From assembly GCA_017500935.1 (NCBI GenBank), contig JAFVXW010000030.1:98162-162161 (forward strand): 64,000 nucleotides of DNA, given 5' to 3'. Both the position numbers and the translations under genes were made by a program. This document shows, piece after piece, positions 5,707 through 64,000 of this stretch (its first letter is position 1; every line of letters starts with the position of its first letter). The notes under the pieces were generated by a model, which did not search any database, was not told where the DNA came from, and was given only the letters and a program-made list of their open reading frames with translations. The stretch comes from Lachnospiraceae bacterium (GTDB lineage Bacteria; Bacillota; Clostridia; Lachnospirales; Lachnospiraceae).

Positions 5707-6309
5707 TTAAAACAAATGTTTCAATGCCGCTTTTAAAAGCTCTTCCACATTCATATCTTCTGCTTCCACCGCTTTTACAGCACGCAGTGCATCTGAGGGT
5801 GCATATCCAAGTGCTGTCAGCGCTTCCACCGCTTCTGTTCTGATCTGACTGCCGCCTGCCGACACAGCCTGTGCTGCTTTAGACTGCTGGGTGATAAGGG
5901 TATCTTCCATGGAAACCTTATCTTTCAGATCAAGAATGATCCTCTGTGCTGTTTTGGCACCGATACCGGGTGCTTTCGAAATTGCCTTTGCGTCCTGTGA
6001 AAGCACTGCCAGACGGATACTGTCCGCGTCCATCACGGATAAAATCGCCAAGCCTGCCTTGGGACCGACTCCGTTTACCGTAATCAGAAGCTTATACATC
6101 ATAAGATCATCTTTTGTCAGAAAACCAAAAAGAGAAATGGCATCCTCACGCACACTTGTATAGGTATAAATTTTAATCTCTTCACCGATTCCGGGCAGCT
6201 GACTGATCACGCTGGAAGGCACTTTAACGTTATATCCGATATGCCCGGTTTCTATTACAATCGTATCCGTCTCAACATCGGCAAGTTTACCGATCAGATA
6301 TGCAATCAT
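5707..6309 (-). CDS. ruvA: Holliday junction DNA helicase subunit RuvA
   Basis: 200 residues, the usual length. The OB-fold N-terminus (MIAYLIGKLADVETD...VIETGHIGYNVKVP), central helix-hairpin-helix motifs (GVGPKAGLAIL, APGIGAKTAQRIILDLKDK) and a C-terminal UBA-like RuvB-binding domain (EAVEALTALGYAPSDALRAVKAV) are in order. RuvA binds the four-way junction and loads RuvB. It ends 4 bp from the convergent lysR stop and is preceded by the DUF4037 gene 23 bp upstream, so it is probably the last gene of that operon. Confidence 0.97.
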   Translation of the reverse strand: MIAYLIGKLADVETDTIVIETGHIGYNVKVPSSVISQLPGIGEEIKIYTYTSVREDAISLFGFLTKDDLMMYKLLITVNGVGPKAGLAILSVMDADSIRLAVLSQDAKAISKAPGIGAKTAQRIILDLKDKVSMEDTLITQQSKAAQAVSAGGSQIRTEAVEALTALGYAPSDALRAVKAVEAEDMNVEELLKAALKHLF

Positions 6310-8182: not shown

Positions 8183-8964
8183 TCAGTTTCCTCACTTTCA
8201 GTATTTTCCGGAATCAGACAGCTTTCCCATCCGTCTCCCAGATCATAGGCGATGCATCTCCAGGCTATTTTTCGTTCTTCATTATATCTGGGAGCACTTC
8301 TTTGCCTGTTCATCGGCAGTTCATATAACAGTGATATGATCTCACCGTTTTCAGAATAAGCACAAGTATATATCAGATATTGTCTCATGGGATCTTCAGA
8401 ATAGGCAAAGGGCAGAAAAACACTGTCTCCCTGACTGTCTGCAAAGGAAAATACCGGAGTTTTGATCTCATAGCGTTCATAAAGTTCCTCAATCGTTTCC
8501 TCTGTCTGCTGTGTCTCATCTTCCTGTGTCTGTGTATCTTCTGCTTCCTGCACTTCTTCGTTTTCTTCTGATGTGTTTTCTCCAGATTCTGTTTTCTGAA
8601 GATATTCTATCATTTCTTCCAGCTTCTTTTTCCTGATTTTCTCTATTGCCTGCTGCGGGATCAGCTCTGTCCTTCCAAACAGATCCTTTTGAAACCGGTC
8701 AAGCTTATTGGTATCTGTAAAGGCAGCATAATCCTTCCACTGTGTACTGAGTTTTTCCAGTGCTATGTTCTCAACACGAAGGTCATAATTGATCTCTCTG
8801 GAATCGATCAGATCCGCATTCAGCTGGGCATTCTCCTGTTCCATCACCTGCATCCGGTTCCGCTCACTCTGCAGCATATAAGCTTCAAAAGCAATAATTC
8901 CAAGCAAAACGATCACAGTAATATAGTTAAAAATCTTGGCAACCACTTCTTCCCGATATTTCAT
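8179..8964 (-). CDS. Membrane-anchored coiled-coil protein of unknown function
   Basis: 261 residues. One membrane segment near residues 12-28 (IFNYITVIVLLGIIAFEAYML) is followed by a coiled coil (about 30-75), a strongly acidic Glu/Thr/Gln-rich linker (about 125-160) and a C-terminal globular part ending in GDGWESCLIPENTESEETE. I do not recognise the C-terminal domain. The topology is probably a short cytoplasmic tail with the rest outside. It is first in the three-gene set with the TPR and DUF4037 genes, overlapping the TPR gene by 4 bp. Confidence 0.65.
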   Translation of the reverse strand: MKYREEVVAKIFNYITVIVLLGIIAFEAYMLQSERNRMQVMEQENAQLNADLIDSREINYDLRVENIALEKLSTQWKDYAAFTDTNKLDRFQKDLFGRTELIPQQAIEKIRKKKLEEMIEYLQKTESGENTSEENEEVQEAEDTQTQEDETQQTEETIEELYERYEIKTPVFSFADSQGDSVFLPFAYSEDPMRQYLIYTCAYSENGEIISLLYELPMNRQRSAPRYNEERKIAWRCIAYDLGDGWESCLIPENTESEETE

Positions 8965-54585: not shown

Positions 54586-56063
54586 CTGATACTTATTATA
54601 CCATATAAACAGCTTTCTTTAACAGATATTTTTCAAGATTGTCAAAATAAATTGGATAATGACAAACCTGCGTTTCTGTCTCTATTGGAAACTCATATTG
54701 ACATTGATGAAATTATTCCGATTTCATTTAGAAATTATTTCTATGCATCAACGGGCAAGACCCGTAAATACCCTTTGCAAGCTTTCCTGTGTGCTTTGAT
54801 CATTCAACGCATTTTCTCTATCCCTACAGACCAGCTTCTCTTGACTTTTCTCTCTTACTCAAAACCTCTTCGTGAGTTCTGTGATTTTACTAAAGTCCCG
54901 GACGCTTCCAAAATCACCCGTTTCAAACAGGATTTTTTGGATGATTAACAGCTCGTTTTCGATAACCTTGTTGATGTTACAGAACCTATCTGTCAAGCTA
55001 TTGATTCTGTCAAAGCTGATATAACTATTTTTGATTCTTCTGGTATTGAAGCTTTCGTGACGGAAAATAATCCTAAATACGCAAACCGGATCATCAAGCA
55101 GTTAAAAGCCTTTGCCAAAGCCAATAACATCAATAACAATTATGACCCATATAAAGCTGCTTATAGCAATATGCCCTCTCATGCAGCTGCAAATCCCGAG
55201 ATCAAACAGCTCTATATTAATGGTCATTTTTGTTATGTTTTTAAGTCCGGCTTCGTAACCAACGGGCTTGGCATCATCCGCCATATTTCTTTCTATGATA
55301 AAGAATTCATGGACTGACTCCCTGAAATCGTGATTGAGAAGAAGTCTGATTCTCCAGATGAAGATAAATGTGTACACGATTCAAAACTGTTGATCCCTAC
55401 ACTGAAAGATTTCTTTGCAAAACATCCGCTTATCAGCCCTAAAACTTTCCTGGGCGATGCTGCTTTTGATACTGTTCAGCTATATAAAGACCTTCTTACT
55501 GGTGATACTTTTGGTAATAACCGGCACTTCTCACAGGTTTACATACCACTTAACACCAGATCACACCTTGAAAATGTTGATTATACTATTAACGAACACG
55601 GAATTCCCTGTTGTCCCAATGACGATTCACTTCCAATGAAACTGGAAGGAACCAAAATGCGGGGCACCGTTAAAACCTTTAAATTTGTATGTCCCAAAGT
55701 CAAGTGGATCTACGATAAACATAACAAAAAGTACACAGGGAATGTCAATGCGAAAATCCTTGTACTTCATCCAAATGTGGACGTATGGTGTATATTTATC
55801 CAGAAAAAGATCTCCGTGCTTATCCCGGCACCATTCGCGGTACCAAAGAATGGGATGATACATAGAAAGTTCGAACGGTTATTGAACAGGACATAAACCA
55901 TATCAAAGAGAATCTTTGCCTTGTCGGCCGCCGTACGCAGAATGAACGTACCTTGTATGCTGATCCGATCCTTGTAGGAATTACCCAGTAGATTACAGTT
56001 GTGTTAGCTGACAAAATACATCACCATAAATTTATCCGCAGCTTAAAGCCTCTGATTGTATAG
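54586..56063 (+). pseudogene. DDE transposase remnant with stops and frameshift
   Basis: The frame starts near 54586 (CTG after AGGAG) with IIPYKQLSLTDIFQDC, then FRNYFYASTGKTRKYPLQAFLCALI, FDSSGIEAFVTENNPKYANRI, INGHFCYVFKSGFVTNGLGIIRHISFYDKEF, then FLGDAAFDTVQLYKDLLTGD and, after a frameshift near 55750, GRMVYIYPEKDLRAYPGTIRGTKEW and EQDINHIKENLCLVGRRTQNERTL. Stops at about 54946, 55315, 55862 and 55988 break it. It is a DDE transposase of the type common in Lachnospiraceae (IS1182-like by appearance; family not confirmed). Confidence 0.85.
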
Positions 56064-61247: not shown

Positions 61248-62129
61248 TCAATCGATTTGCTCAAATTCCAATCCGGAATCATCCCGTTCCGGTGTGCTTT
61301 GTACCTCAATTTCACTTACAACAGGTTCTGATGCAGCTGCAGCATCTGAGGGCTGGCTTTCACTTTCCAAAACTTCAGCGCGATCACTGACAACTTCATC
61401 ATCTTTTGCCTTTTTGCTCTTTGTTAAGGTTTCAGCATTGTCATTTCCATAATATTTTCCATAATACTTGCCGTAGTATTTTCCGTAATAAGCATTATGC
61501 TTCATATCCACTTTATTGAGGATACAGCCTAAGATACGGCAGCCTGCTTTTTCCAGCTGTTCTTTGACGCTCTGGGCAAATTTATAGCTGATGGCATTGG
61601 ATTCAATGACAATTGCCACACCGTCACATTCTCTGGAAATAATGGCACTGTCGATAACACTTCCCAGCGGAGGGGTATCCACTACCACATAGTCATAGTC
61701 CTCACGCAGTTCATGGATCATGTCCTTAAACGCTTTGTTTCCCAGAAGTTCACTGGGGTTGGGCGGTACGGGACCGGCAAAGATAATATCGAAATTTTCC
61801 ACATTGGTAACGCAAATGGCATCATCCAGCTCTGCCTGTCCGCTTAAGTAATGGGACAGACCGTATTTCTCATGGGTTGCCTTGTAGCGGCCGCGCATAA
61901 CGGATTTTCGCATGTCGGCGTCAACGAGGATCGTTCTTTTTCCAGCTTCCGCTAAAGAAAGTGCAAGCTGGAAGGATACACTGGTCTTTCCTTCATTAGG
62001 GGTACAGCTGGTCAGCGCCACTACCCTTACTGATTTTCCTGCGAACTCCAGATTGGTGCGCAGGGTTTTGTATGCTTCTTTTGTTCTGAAATCCTGTTTA
62101 TCTATTGATTTGATTACTACATTTTGCAT
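61248..62129 (-). CDS. cpsD: CpsD/CapB-type tyrosine-protein kinase
   Basis: 293 residues, BY-kinase with Walker A CTPNEGKTS (about 42-50), Walker A' ILVDADMRKS (67-76) and Walker B VVVDTPP (148-154). The tyrosine cluster AYYGKYYGKYYGKYYG (residues 213-228) is a fourfold 12-bp repeat (61449-61493). Unlike usual, it is followed by an acidic Ser/Glu tail of about 65 residues. It pairs with the Wzz-type protein encoded upstream and is dephosphorylated by CpsB. It controls capsule chain synthesis. Confidence 0.92.
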   Translation of the reverse strand: MQNVVIKSIDKQDFRTKEAYKTLRTNLEFAGKSVRVVALTSCTPNEGKTSVSFQLALSLAEAGKRTILVDADMRKSVMRGRYKATHEKYGLSHYLSGQAELDDAICVTNVENFDIIFAGPVPPNPSELLGNKAFKDMIHELREDYDYVVVDTPPLGSVIDSAIISRECDGVAIVIESNAISYKFAQSVKEQLEKAGCRILGCILNKVDMKHNAYYGKYYGKYYGKYYGNDNAETLTKSKKAKDDEVVSDRAEVLESESQPSDAAAASEPVVSEIEVQSTPERDDSGLEFEQID

Positions 62130-62165: not shown

Positions 62166-62894
62166 CTAATTTCTGCGATTTTTCTTTTTTGATTTTTTCT
62201 CGCCTTCACCCAGAGGAATCAGGGCAAGGGTAGAAAGACCCAAATATTTCTCAACATCTTCTGAGGTTTTGATGGTATCGTTTAATAAGAACAGAAGAAT
62301 TGCGATACCTGCAATCAAAAAGACACCTAAGACGCCGCCGATAAAGGTATTCTTGAACACGCTGGGACTTGCCTTTTCACTGGGAAGATTTGCGGTCTCA
62401 GCCACATTGACAGCTTCAATATCCATAACATTGGTGATATGTACAGAGGCAGCTTCACGAATAGCATTGGCGATATTCATCGCCAGCACAGGGCTGCTGT
62501 CAGATGCCTTGATGGAAATGATTCGGGTATCGGAAGGAGTGGTCACTGTCACTTTACCCACAAGCTGTTCGTAAGTAAGATCCAGATCAAGCTGGTGGAT
62601 AACCTCTTCCAGCACATAGCGGCTCTTGATCAGCTCCGCATAGTCCTTGGTCAGCTGCGTACCCATCTGCAGGTCGGAGTAAGTGACATTGCTGTTTTCC
62701 TGTTTATTTAAGATATAAACCTTGGTGGTGGATTCAAAGGTAGGTACAAGCACAAATTTGCTCACAAGAAAGGTTACAAGCGCAAAAAACAACCCCACTG
62801 CCATCATCATGGGGATTTTTCTTACCAGCACCATAAAAATGGCGCCAAGGTCAATTTCCAATTCGTCGTTTTCCTGATTATAGGTATTAGCCAT
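62166..62894 (-). CDS. wzz: Wzz/CapA-type chain-length determinant protein
   Basis: 242 residues with two membrane segments (about 27-50 and 180-205) and the extracytoplasmic loop between them. ELEIDLGAIFMVLVRKIPMMMAVGLFFALVTFLVSKF and SEKASPSVFKNTFIGGVLGVFLIAGIAIL are the Wzz family ends, with the Pro-rich SPSVF just before TM2. It ends in a basic KKSKKKNRRN tail that would contact CpsD. It activates CpsD and sets chain length. Confidence 0.92.
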   Translation of the reverse strand: MANTYNQENDELEIDLGAIFMVLVRKIPMMMAVGLFFALVTFLVSKFVLVPTFESTTKVYILNKQENSNVTYSDLQMGTQLTKDYAELIKSRYVLEEVIHQLDLDLTYEQLVGKVTVTTPSDTRIISIKASDSSPVLAMNIANAIREAASVHITNVMDIEAVNVAETANLPSEKASPSVFKNTFIGGVLGVFLIAGIAILLFLLNDTIKTSEDVEKYLGLSTLALIPLGEGEKKSKKKNRRN

Positions 62895-62915: not shown

Positions 62916-63644
62916 TTATAATTCTTCATCGGCAAATATCGCTTCCGCATTCTGATACAGTAGTTTTGCTGCTGCCTGGCTTCCAAGCTTTTTATCCAGC
63001 CATTTTGCACAGTTTTCCATCTTCGGAACGCGTTTTCCTTTATCGGAATGGGCATCCGTTCCCAGAAAATGCACCAGGCCTTCTTTCATGATTTTTCTTG
63101 ACGCATGTTTTAAGCCAAATCCCCAGTCACCGGTAAGGCTTCCGGCGTTCATCTGGATATAGCAACCCATCTGGATGAGTTCATCAATGTTGTCAAGATC
63201 TTTGACCAGTGCGTGGCACCGCTCTGCGTGCGCAATGATCGGCCAGTAGCCGGCACAGATCAGATCATAGAGTCCGTTTCTGATATACTGCATGTCTTCA
63301 TTGGGCAGAAACTCCGTAAGGGCATAATGAGACCCGGCCATGGTACATACTTTTTGTGCTTCGAGTCTTTCGGTAAGTTCTGAATGATAAAGCAATTCAC
63401 TGCCGGGGTACAACTTAATATCAATATGATTCTGCCTTAACGTATCCTGCAAAACTGCAATTCTTTTATAGGTTCCTTCCACGGAAACGCAGTGTCTGTC
63501 GGGCTTTTGGTGAGGGGTCAAAATGATCCTTCCAATATTTTCCTTCTCCGCTGCTTTCAGCATGCGCAGACTGCATTCCATATCTTTGGAGCCATCATCC
63601 ACACCATATAAGATGTGGGAATGAATGTCTGTATAACGAGGCAT
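62916..63644 (-). CDS. cpsB: CpsB/CapC-type tyrosine-protein phosphatase (PHP family)
   Basis: 242 residues, a manganese-dependent phosphatase. PHP motifs DIHSHILYGVDDGSKD (about 6-21), ILTPHQKPDRH, IIAHAERCHAL and GTDAHSDKGKRVP supply the metal ligands. It dephosphorylates CpsD. First gene of the capsule operon, with AAAAAGGAT upstream and a strong promoter 43 bases further. Confidence 0.94.
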   Translation of the reverse strand: MPRYTDIHSHILYGVDDGSKDMECSLRMLKAAEKENIGRIILTPHQKPDRHCVSVEGTYKRIAVLQDTLRQNHIDIKLYPGSELLYHSELTERLEAQKVCTMAGSHYALTEFLPNEDMQYIRNGLYDLICAGYWPIIAHAERCHALVKDLDNIDELIQMGCYIQMNAGSLTGDWGFGLKHASRKIMKEGLVHFLGTDAHSDKGKRVPKMENCAKWLDKKLGSQAAAKLLYQNAEAIFADEEL

Positions 63645-63693: not shown

Positions 63694-63722
63694 ATAATAT
63701 ACAACTATTCCTGCTTTGTCAA
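63694..63722 (-). promoter_or_regulatory. Sigma-A promoter of the capsule operon
   Basis: On the minus strand TTGACA (63717-63722) and TATTAT (63694-63699) are exactly 17 bp apart. Transcription would start near 63687, leaving a leader of about 43 bases to cpsB. Confidence 0.8.
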
Positions 63723-63836
63723 CTTTTATGAAAAATTGGTACAAAATGTCATAATTTGTATAGATAAATTGATTCAGATTCGTCATTTTTTAATACTATA
63801 TGCGTTTTAGCGCAAAAAAAGGGGTAATCAAAGTTT

Positions 63837-63933
63837 TTGATGGGCAGTCTTTTTGATGGTTTAGTTTGATGGCTAAACTTGATGGTCTACTTTGATGGGC
63901 TGGGTTGATGGGCAAACTTGATGGTTTGATTGG
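63837..63933. repeat. TTGATGG repeat array upstream of the capsule promoter
   Basis: Seven exact TTGATGG copies begin at 63837, 63853, 63866, 63879, 63892, 63905 and 63918; steps are 16 and then five times 13 bp. A near copy TTGATTGG starts at 63926. The six bases between copies are not conserved. It sits 115 bp and more upstream of the -35. No CRISPR-type longer repeat or spacer structure is present. Confidence 0.85.
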
Positions 63934-63951
63934 AAATTTAATATTTAACGT

Positions 63952-63993
63952 AAAAACCAGGGATATCACATCGATTTCCCTGGTTTTCTTTTT
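63952..63993. terminator. Terminator at the window end
   Basis: AAAACCAGGGA and TTCCCTGGTTTT (63954-63986) form an 11-bp stem, with T-rich sequence on either side, so it could stop transcription entering from the right or leaving to the right. Confidence 0.7.
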
Positions 63994-64000
63994 GAGGGTA

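Follow-up and report, generated by a model that had tools for sequence, protein, structure and literature searches.

From the comparisons of the window, i.e. the whole stretch of 64,000 nucleotides that was analysed, with its own genome and with related genomes, we conclude that the array of TTGATGG words near its end is very likely the transposase-proximal end (end A) of an insertion sequence of the ISL3 family, which lies 178 bp upstream of cpsB, where the capsule operon begins, and points away from it. The array is part of a dispersed repeat located at four contig ends of the window's genome (G000). The putative assignment of the window copy to ISL3 rests on relatives of the element and on target-site duplications, both of which are described below.

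The word array and its surroundings at the contig edge

Seven exact TTGATGG words start at positions 63837, 63853, 63866, 63879, 63892, 63905 and 63918, with a first step of 16 bp and five subsequent steps of 13 bp, which places six words in register. Together they form an array of probable transposase-binding sites (63837-63924, + strand), a classification based on the word positions and on an alignment across elements, and the seventh word is directly followed by a degenerate further copy (TTTGATTGG, 63925-63933, + strand). The array was thus confirmed at the place given in the sequence-only reading of this DNA. That reading had also described the word as conserved and the filler as variable, and had regarded a conserved filler as the mark of a simple repeat; the five fillers that were compared show a mean identity of only 33%, while the words are exact. 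Over the whole window TTGATGG occurs 21 times versus 15.6 expected, and at least 21 occurrences were reached in 12 of 100 shuffles, i.e. the word as such is not clearly enriched. At a spacing of 13 bp, five pairs and four triples of the word were observed on both strands of the window, and pairs were found in none of 200 dinucleotide-shuffled sequences. A step of 13 bp corresponds to about 86 degrees past one full helical turn, so that the array returns to almost the same face of the helix every four steps. As RNA, the array folds weakly on the capsule-sense strand (z -2.4).

Contig C13 of G000 ends with the last position of the window, 64000 (contig position 162161). On the other side, the array overlaps the outer tip of end A (GGGTAATCAAAGTTTTTGATGG, 63822-63843, + strand), a quasi-palindrome in which one half-site faces outward and the other inward, recognized by tip comparison; the same tip is located in contig C29, and related tips are located in C32 and C33 of G000 and in the relatives L078, L082, G433, G483 and G249. 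Counted from the tip, the TGATGG words of the window have offsets of +16, +32, +45, +58, +71, +84 and +97. The presumed 8-bp target AAAAAAAG (63814-63821, + strand) adjoins the element end. Downstream of the array, a hairpin followed by a T-rich stretch (63953-63987, + strand; -19.4 kcal/mol, z -4.2) is terminator-like and separates the array from the transposase gene expected further on. The array had been described as lying between a terminator and the capsule promoter; the hairpin indeed folds stably, but it is part of the same repeat and was absent from the output of a consensus terminator scan. Comparable hairpins are present at the equivalent place in G433, G483 and G459, as judged by eye from unfolded sequences, and the element-borne hairpin would keep outside transcripts out of the transposase gene. 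A lone TTGAGGG at 63992-63998, past the hairpin, corresponds to the word type of the Butyrivibrio elements and is also present in the C29 copy.

The neighbouring host gene outside the element, the first gene of the capsule operon, encodes CpsB/CapC (62916-63644, - strand; Pfam PF19567, E 1.1e-88) and is followed by genes for Wzz (62166-62894) and a P-loop NTPase (61248-62129), both assigned by Pfam search. The predicted promoter of the operon (TTGACA-17-TATTAT, 63694-63722, - strand; 11/12 matches in a consensus scan) lies in host DNA and is intact, but the call is only suggestive, since the stretch harbors two promoter-like sites versus 2.4 expected in shuffled sequences. On the upstream side of the operon, the element begins 178 bp from the cpsB start codon and about 100 bp from the predicted promoter, and by analogy with relatives it appears to point away from the operon. 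The insertion may have cut off or added upstream control of the capsule genes; any such effect would be incidental to the element. Inside the capsule gene cluster, broken transposase frames at 54652-55896 (+ strand) represent an unrelated second IS remnant, in which the first frame matches the transposase domain DUF772 (E 1.4e-10) and the last frame has no Pfam match.

Copies within the genome and their flanking sequences

Three words at a spacing of 13 bp gave 11 matches in G000, which are restricted to the contigs C13, C29, C32 and C33 and are all located at a distance of up to about 150 bases from a contig end. The last 141 bases of C13 (63860-64000 of the window, + strand) are identical to those of C29, and the last 141 bases of C32 are identical to those of C33; the two A ends share 98% identity over 185 bp and the two B ends are identical over 141 bp. 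In the Butyrivibrio genome G433 the same figure of 141 was observed on three further occasions, from which we infer that a short-read assembler working with a word length of 141 halted at the repeat. The end of C13 would accordingly be an assembly fork past which the element continues. The remaining sequence is different in each of the four contigs, with the capsule operon at C13 and other genes elsewhere according to the reading frames, including a frame beside the C33 copy that resembles a sugar nucleotidyltransferase. The switch from unique to shared sequence occurs at the tip, which reads GGGTAATCAAAG in C13 and C29 (A) and GGATCATCAAAC in C32 and C33 (B).

Neither a further copy of the end nor a contig representing the interior was seen in G000, and searches of this assembly for an LCxxNW gene (E 0.01), which accompanies some of the relatives described below, and for a transposase of this ISL3 group (E 1e-15) gave no match, so that the ISL3 attribution rests on homology of the ends. 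Upstream of the C29 insertion (L010:6580-8418) we observed another transposon remnant. One of its frames weakly matches ISH6, and another is split, with a match to IS481/IS3 transposases in one of the halves. The integrase-type transposase in this region was rejected as the element's gene, because it belongs to this separate remnant.

If A and B are the ends of one element, reverse-complementing the eight bases next to a B end should give those next to the matching A end, and a target duplication of 8 bp is typical of ISL3. Perfect 8-bp pairs, containing one to four G or C, were found in 4 of 25 comparisons: one of four in G000 (C29/C32, CTAAAATA) and three of 21 in G433 (C5/C77, CAAAATAG; C18/C57, TCCCTTTA; C53/C68, GCTCTATC). 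The simulated chance of a perfect pair is 5.7e-5 per comparison at 72% AT. The flanks of the G483 element, GAAATCTA and AAAATCTA, agree in seven of eight bases. The flank of the window copy has no matching partner among the assembled B ends, the C33 flank AGTATAAA included; the other flank may be missing from the assembly, or the copy may have undergone a deletion or a recombination event. The duplication expected for ISL3 is thus present for four pairs of ends, and for the window copy no partner was found.

ISL3 transposases and a fixed ruler of words in relatives

At E 0.001, the 186-bp end was not matched in any of 60 other genomes, which vary in completeness and include 12 members of the same genus. 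When up to two mismatches were allowed, the pattern of three words at a spacing of 13 bp was found in 3 of 397 family genomes including the window's own; another of the three, G238, was seen only as a match line. In a genome collection, 65 stretches contain three exact words at this spacing, and the tip is also present in two of them, L078 (Lachnospiraceae bacterium RGIG2185) and L082 (Butyrivibrio RGIG9232, genome G433). The 63 tip-less stretches were discarded as relatives; by eye, most are tandem repeats with near-constant filler, and a few show more variable filler. Viral candidates were also dismissed, as the pattern match L104 has no tip and the tip matches L137 and L138 have no array in the stretch inspected. 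No DNA similar to the element ends was found in the plasmids or phages searched, and a search of viral contigs with the transposase fragment described below revealed no relative. An irregular array of TTGATGC and TTGATGG words in G289 of the family sample (L105:1470-1610), in which no element tip was seen, was noted separately.

Searching G433 with the tip pattern revealed additional copies, most of them located at contig ends, in which TGAGGG takes the place of TGATGG. One end-A copy in this genome (contig C139; L139, about 5717-5953) matches the C5 copy over 237 bp and then diverges; it lies beside a response-regulator-like gene and could represent a truncated copy or a MITE. The gene beside L082, which we take to encode an Rpn-like nuclease, was considered as the element's gene and rejected (one EF-hand match at E 0.098, none in NCBIfam).

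The gene before the L078 array is 66-70% identical to proteins annotated as 'mobility-associated LCxxNW'. Such genes were found in 9 of 397 family genomes at E 1e-4, and eight loci were inspected, one of which has the tip (L158, genome G249); the other seven lack it and mostly show, by eye, short repeats of another kind. The LCxxNW gene alone is therefore no marker of the element. L162, L164, L165 and L166 stayed outside this comparison. In G249 the end of an ISL3 transposase (PF01610, E 1.2e-14) is followed by the LCxxNW gene (NCBIfam, 119 bits at a cut-off of 40), a hairpin, the array and the tip. A search with this transposase fragment matched 2 of the 397 family genomes (E 1e-15) and 5 of 79 genomes of the genus of G433 (E 1e-12). 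G483 harbors a single 2183-bp element bounded by both tips and both arrays (end A and end B), in which the transposase is split into two frames with 75% identity to the G249 fragment; its accessory frame differs (112 aa, no Pfam match). The transposase of G459 is intact (469 aa, L175:3187-4593) and reaches 190.9 bits with the ISL3 equivalog model, i.e. above the family cut-off of 180. Close to its N-terminus, the ISL3 zinc ribbon is matched, albeit below the threshold. An end-A array precedes this gene, and an LCxxNW gene and an array follow it, behind which the B tip was not seen. B-type ends are also present in G449, G435 and G156. In G499, which was found via its transposase, tip and array are absent from the stretch fetched. 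Searching solved structures with the transposase sequence gave only unrelated weak matches (best E 0.13).

The inverted tips, which start with GG as in ISL3, are thus found in G000 in the same two kinds that bound the G483 element. Based on these arrangements, we interpret the two array kinds of G000 as opposite ends of a single kind of IS, with A before the transposase and B after the accessory gene, and the window copy would have the same interior as the elements of the relatives.

In all of the 11 A ends, TGATGG or TGAGGG is located at 16, 32, 45, 58, 71, 84 and 97 bp from the tip (once also at 110), as far as each array of four to eight words reaches; one word is mutated in C29. The ruler of the B ends is different: words at 16, 36 and 49 bp are followed by a gap and then by words at 81, 94, 107 and 120 bp (in some at 133), so that both ends return to steps of 13 bp from different beginnings. 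This pattern holds to each array's reach in 8 of 11 B ends, including short ones, as C77 covers the first three positions only and the arrays of C57 and C68 are truncated where the contig stops; the G156 end shows the first two positions only, as TTAGGG. The three deviating B ends are those of G483 (off by 1 bp after the gap), G435 (shorter gap) and G432 (degenerate). Between elements, word columns are more conserved than filler columns, with 92% versus 59% identity for six A ends and 84% versus 52% for five B ends, a comparison from which near-identical copies and the B ends of G483 and G435 (shifted), G156 (short) and C77 (diverging) were omitted. The identity of the word columns peaks at the true offset among the 13 offsets tried. 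These values agree with the earlier suggestion of selection on protein-binding sites.

The word type is uniform within the end in 10 of 11 aligned ends, the exception being G432, which is mixed and has its third word off the ruler. Where both ends are known their words agree, with TGATGG in G000 and TGAGGG in G433 and G483 (one TTAGGG in G483); G433 additionally contains one TGATGG copy (C66) beside its TGAGGG copies. A ruler that stays fixed while word and number drift in concert looks like protein sites kept in register, and the words are probably multiple binding sites of the transposase.

Alternative explanations and proposed recognition of arrayed ends

The sequence-only reading had proposed that the array is a switch for the capsule, i.e. 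that a host regulator binds the TTGATGG words and controls the capsule promoter. The location about 100 bp upstream of the predicted promoter and the conserved words between variable fillers would fit such a role. However, the same repeat kind is present at three other places in G000 with different neighbours and is thus not confined to capsule promoters, 8-bp duplications bound four insertions, and the repeat accompanies transposases in relatives, where it forms an IS end. The lack of a match in the 60 other genomes leans in the same direction with respect to the expected presence of the array in close relatives, with the limit that these genomes were searched irrespective of a homologous capsule promoter. 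The data gave no evidence for a dedicated capsule switch, which we consider extremely improbable. Another family of insertion sequences, e.g. IS21, which combines repeated sites with LCxxNW genes, is just as hard to reconcile with the data: in a plasmid of Ruminococcus albus, an LCxxNW gene does follow istA and a gene for an ATP-binding protein, with end repeats of about 22 bp (by eye), but the transposase beside the matching ends is of the ISL3 type, the tips start with GG and the duplications comprise 8 bp. IS21 was dropped as a source because the matching ends in G249, G483 and G459 adjoin ISL3 transposases in place of istA and istB.

Slippage is a further explanation, in which the array would be a plain tandem duplication without binding function. 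Unit number varies within G433 (five to eight words in A ends of the TGAGGG type, four in C66) and some neighbouring units are identical there, as slippage would predict; against this, the window fillers are dissimilar between exact words, both the ruler and the gap of 32 bp in end B are found again in different genomes, and the words agree at the two ends of the element, which face opposite ways. Slippage is therefore improbable in our view. Somewhat more room, at a level that we would still call unlikely, is left for the window copy being a relic, truncated or MITE-like, whose array has no present function, which is compatible with an ISL3 origin. Solo or truncated copies exist elsewhere (C139 of G433, L082, L078 and G156), no transposase of the group was found in the G000 assembly, and no target duplication was found for the window copy. 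On the other hand, the exact words of the window, the near-identity of the A ends, the identity of the B ends and the C29/C32 duplication point to recent movement in G000.

For the preferred reading, an ISL3 end with an array, ordinary ISL3 elements (NCBIfam NF033550, Pfam PF01610) provide the closest comparison, as they share the transposase family, the 8-bp duplications and the inverted tips starting with GG. Six were fetched and five analysed, four of which have an inverted-repeat pair (L185 was left out because of its short transposase frame, and L184 has no inverted repeat). The Parageobacillus element L180 has a similar quasi-palindromic tip and a perfect 8-bp duplication, ATAAAACT; it is the only one with matching flanks, so that the ends chosen for L181, L182 and L183 are uncertain. 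These ordinary elements appear to have the tip but no array: in the four, the most frequent 6-mer is present at most 2-3 times in the outermost 160 bp of an end, versus six to seven times in the arrayed elements, from which we conclude that ISL3 transposition does not generally depend on arrays. The arrayed group differs by a hairpin, an accessory gene that varies between elements and, at each of the two ends, an array with 13-bp spacing.

Multi-site ends are also known from other elements. In the eukaryotic hAT transposons Hermes, Tol2 and Ac, a zinc-finger domain of the transposase recognises subterminal repeats including a quasi-palindrome near the tip, and the target has 8 bp (PMC10368747). 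The arrayed ISL3 ends appear similar in having several short sites inside the end, a two-site quasi-palindrome near the tip and an 8-bp target, with a zinc ribbon that is detected here at a sub-threshold level only. However, the hAT transposase is unrelated, so the analogy is one of mechanism only, and in Hermes the zinc-finger domains are bound by the left end only. IS21 (IstA), Mu and Tn7 have several copies of the transposase-recognised sequence at each end (PMC10122671), which is a likeness in the multi-site ends, but with another transposase. IS21 elements can in addition carry an LCxxNW accessory gene, as in the Ruminococcus albus plasmid pRUMAL02, where an IS21 with an LCxxNW gene has, by eye, the repeats of about 22 bp at both ends (L151:5540-5680 and 8380-8490); the accessory gene thus travels with different IS families having multi-site ends.

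In the mechanism that we propose, the TGATGG words are candidate binding sites of the element's own transposase. Several transposase units would load on the phased words and the quasi-palindromic tip and thereby find and hold the end; the loaded end A would then pair with end B, which has its own, differently spaced array, and the transposase would subsequently cut and insert at 8-bp targets. Arrays of this type in ISL3 elements were not found in the open-access literature, judged from titles and abstract openings among the matches listed, and ISL3 elements with arrayed ends appear to be new as a variant within the literature searched.

Where a short-read contig stops in a regular array, a mobile element may have one of its ends there. 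This represents a general trap, and in the present case a false lead for capsule regulation is removed. More tentatively, and with somewhat less than even confidence, we propose that a lineage of ISL3 elements in Clostridia has evolved long asymmetric arrays, on which the transposase would form a higher-order, partly helical complex that distinguishes the two ends, with the switch between TGATGG and TGAGGG accompanying changes in the DNA-binding domain, as a bacterial counterpart of end recognition in hAT transposons. The natural variants in word, number and spacing make end recognition in the ISL3 family directly testable.
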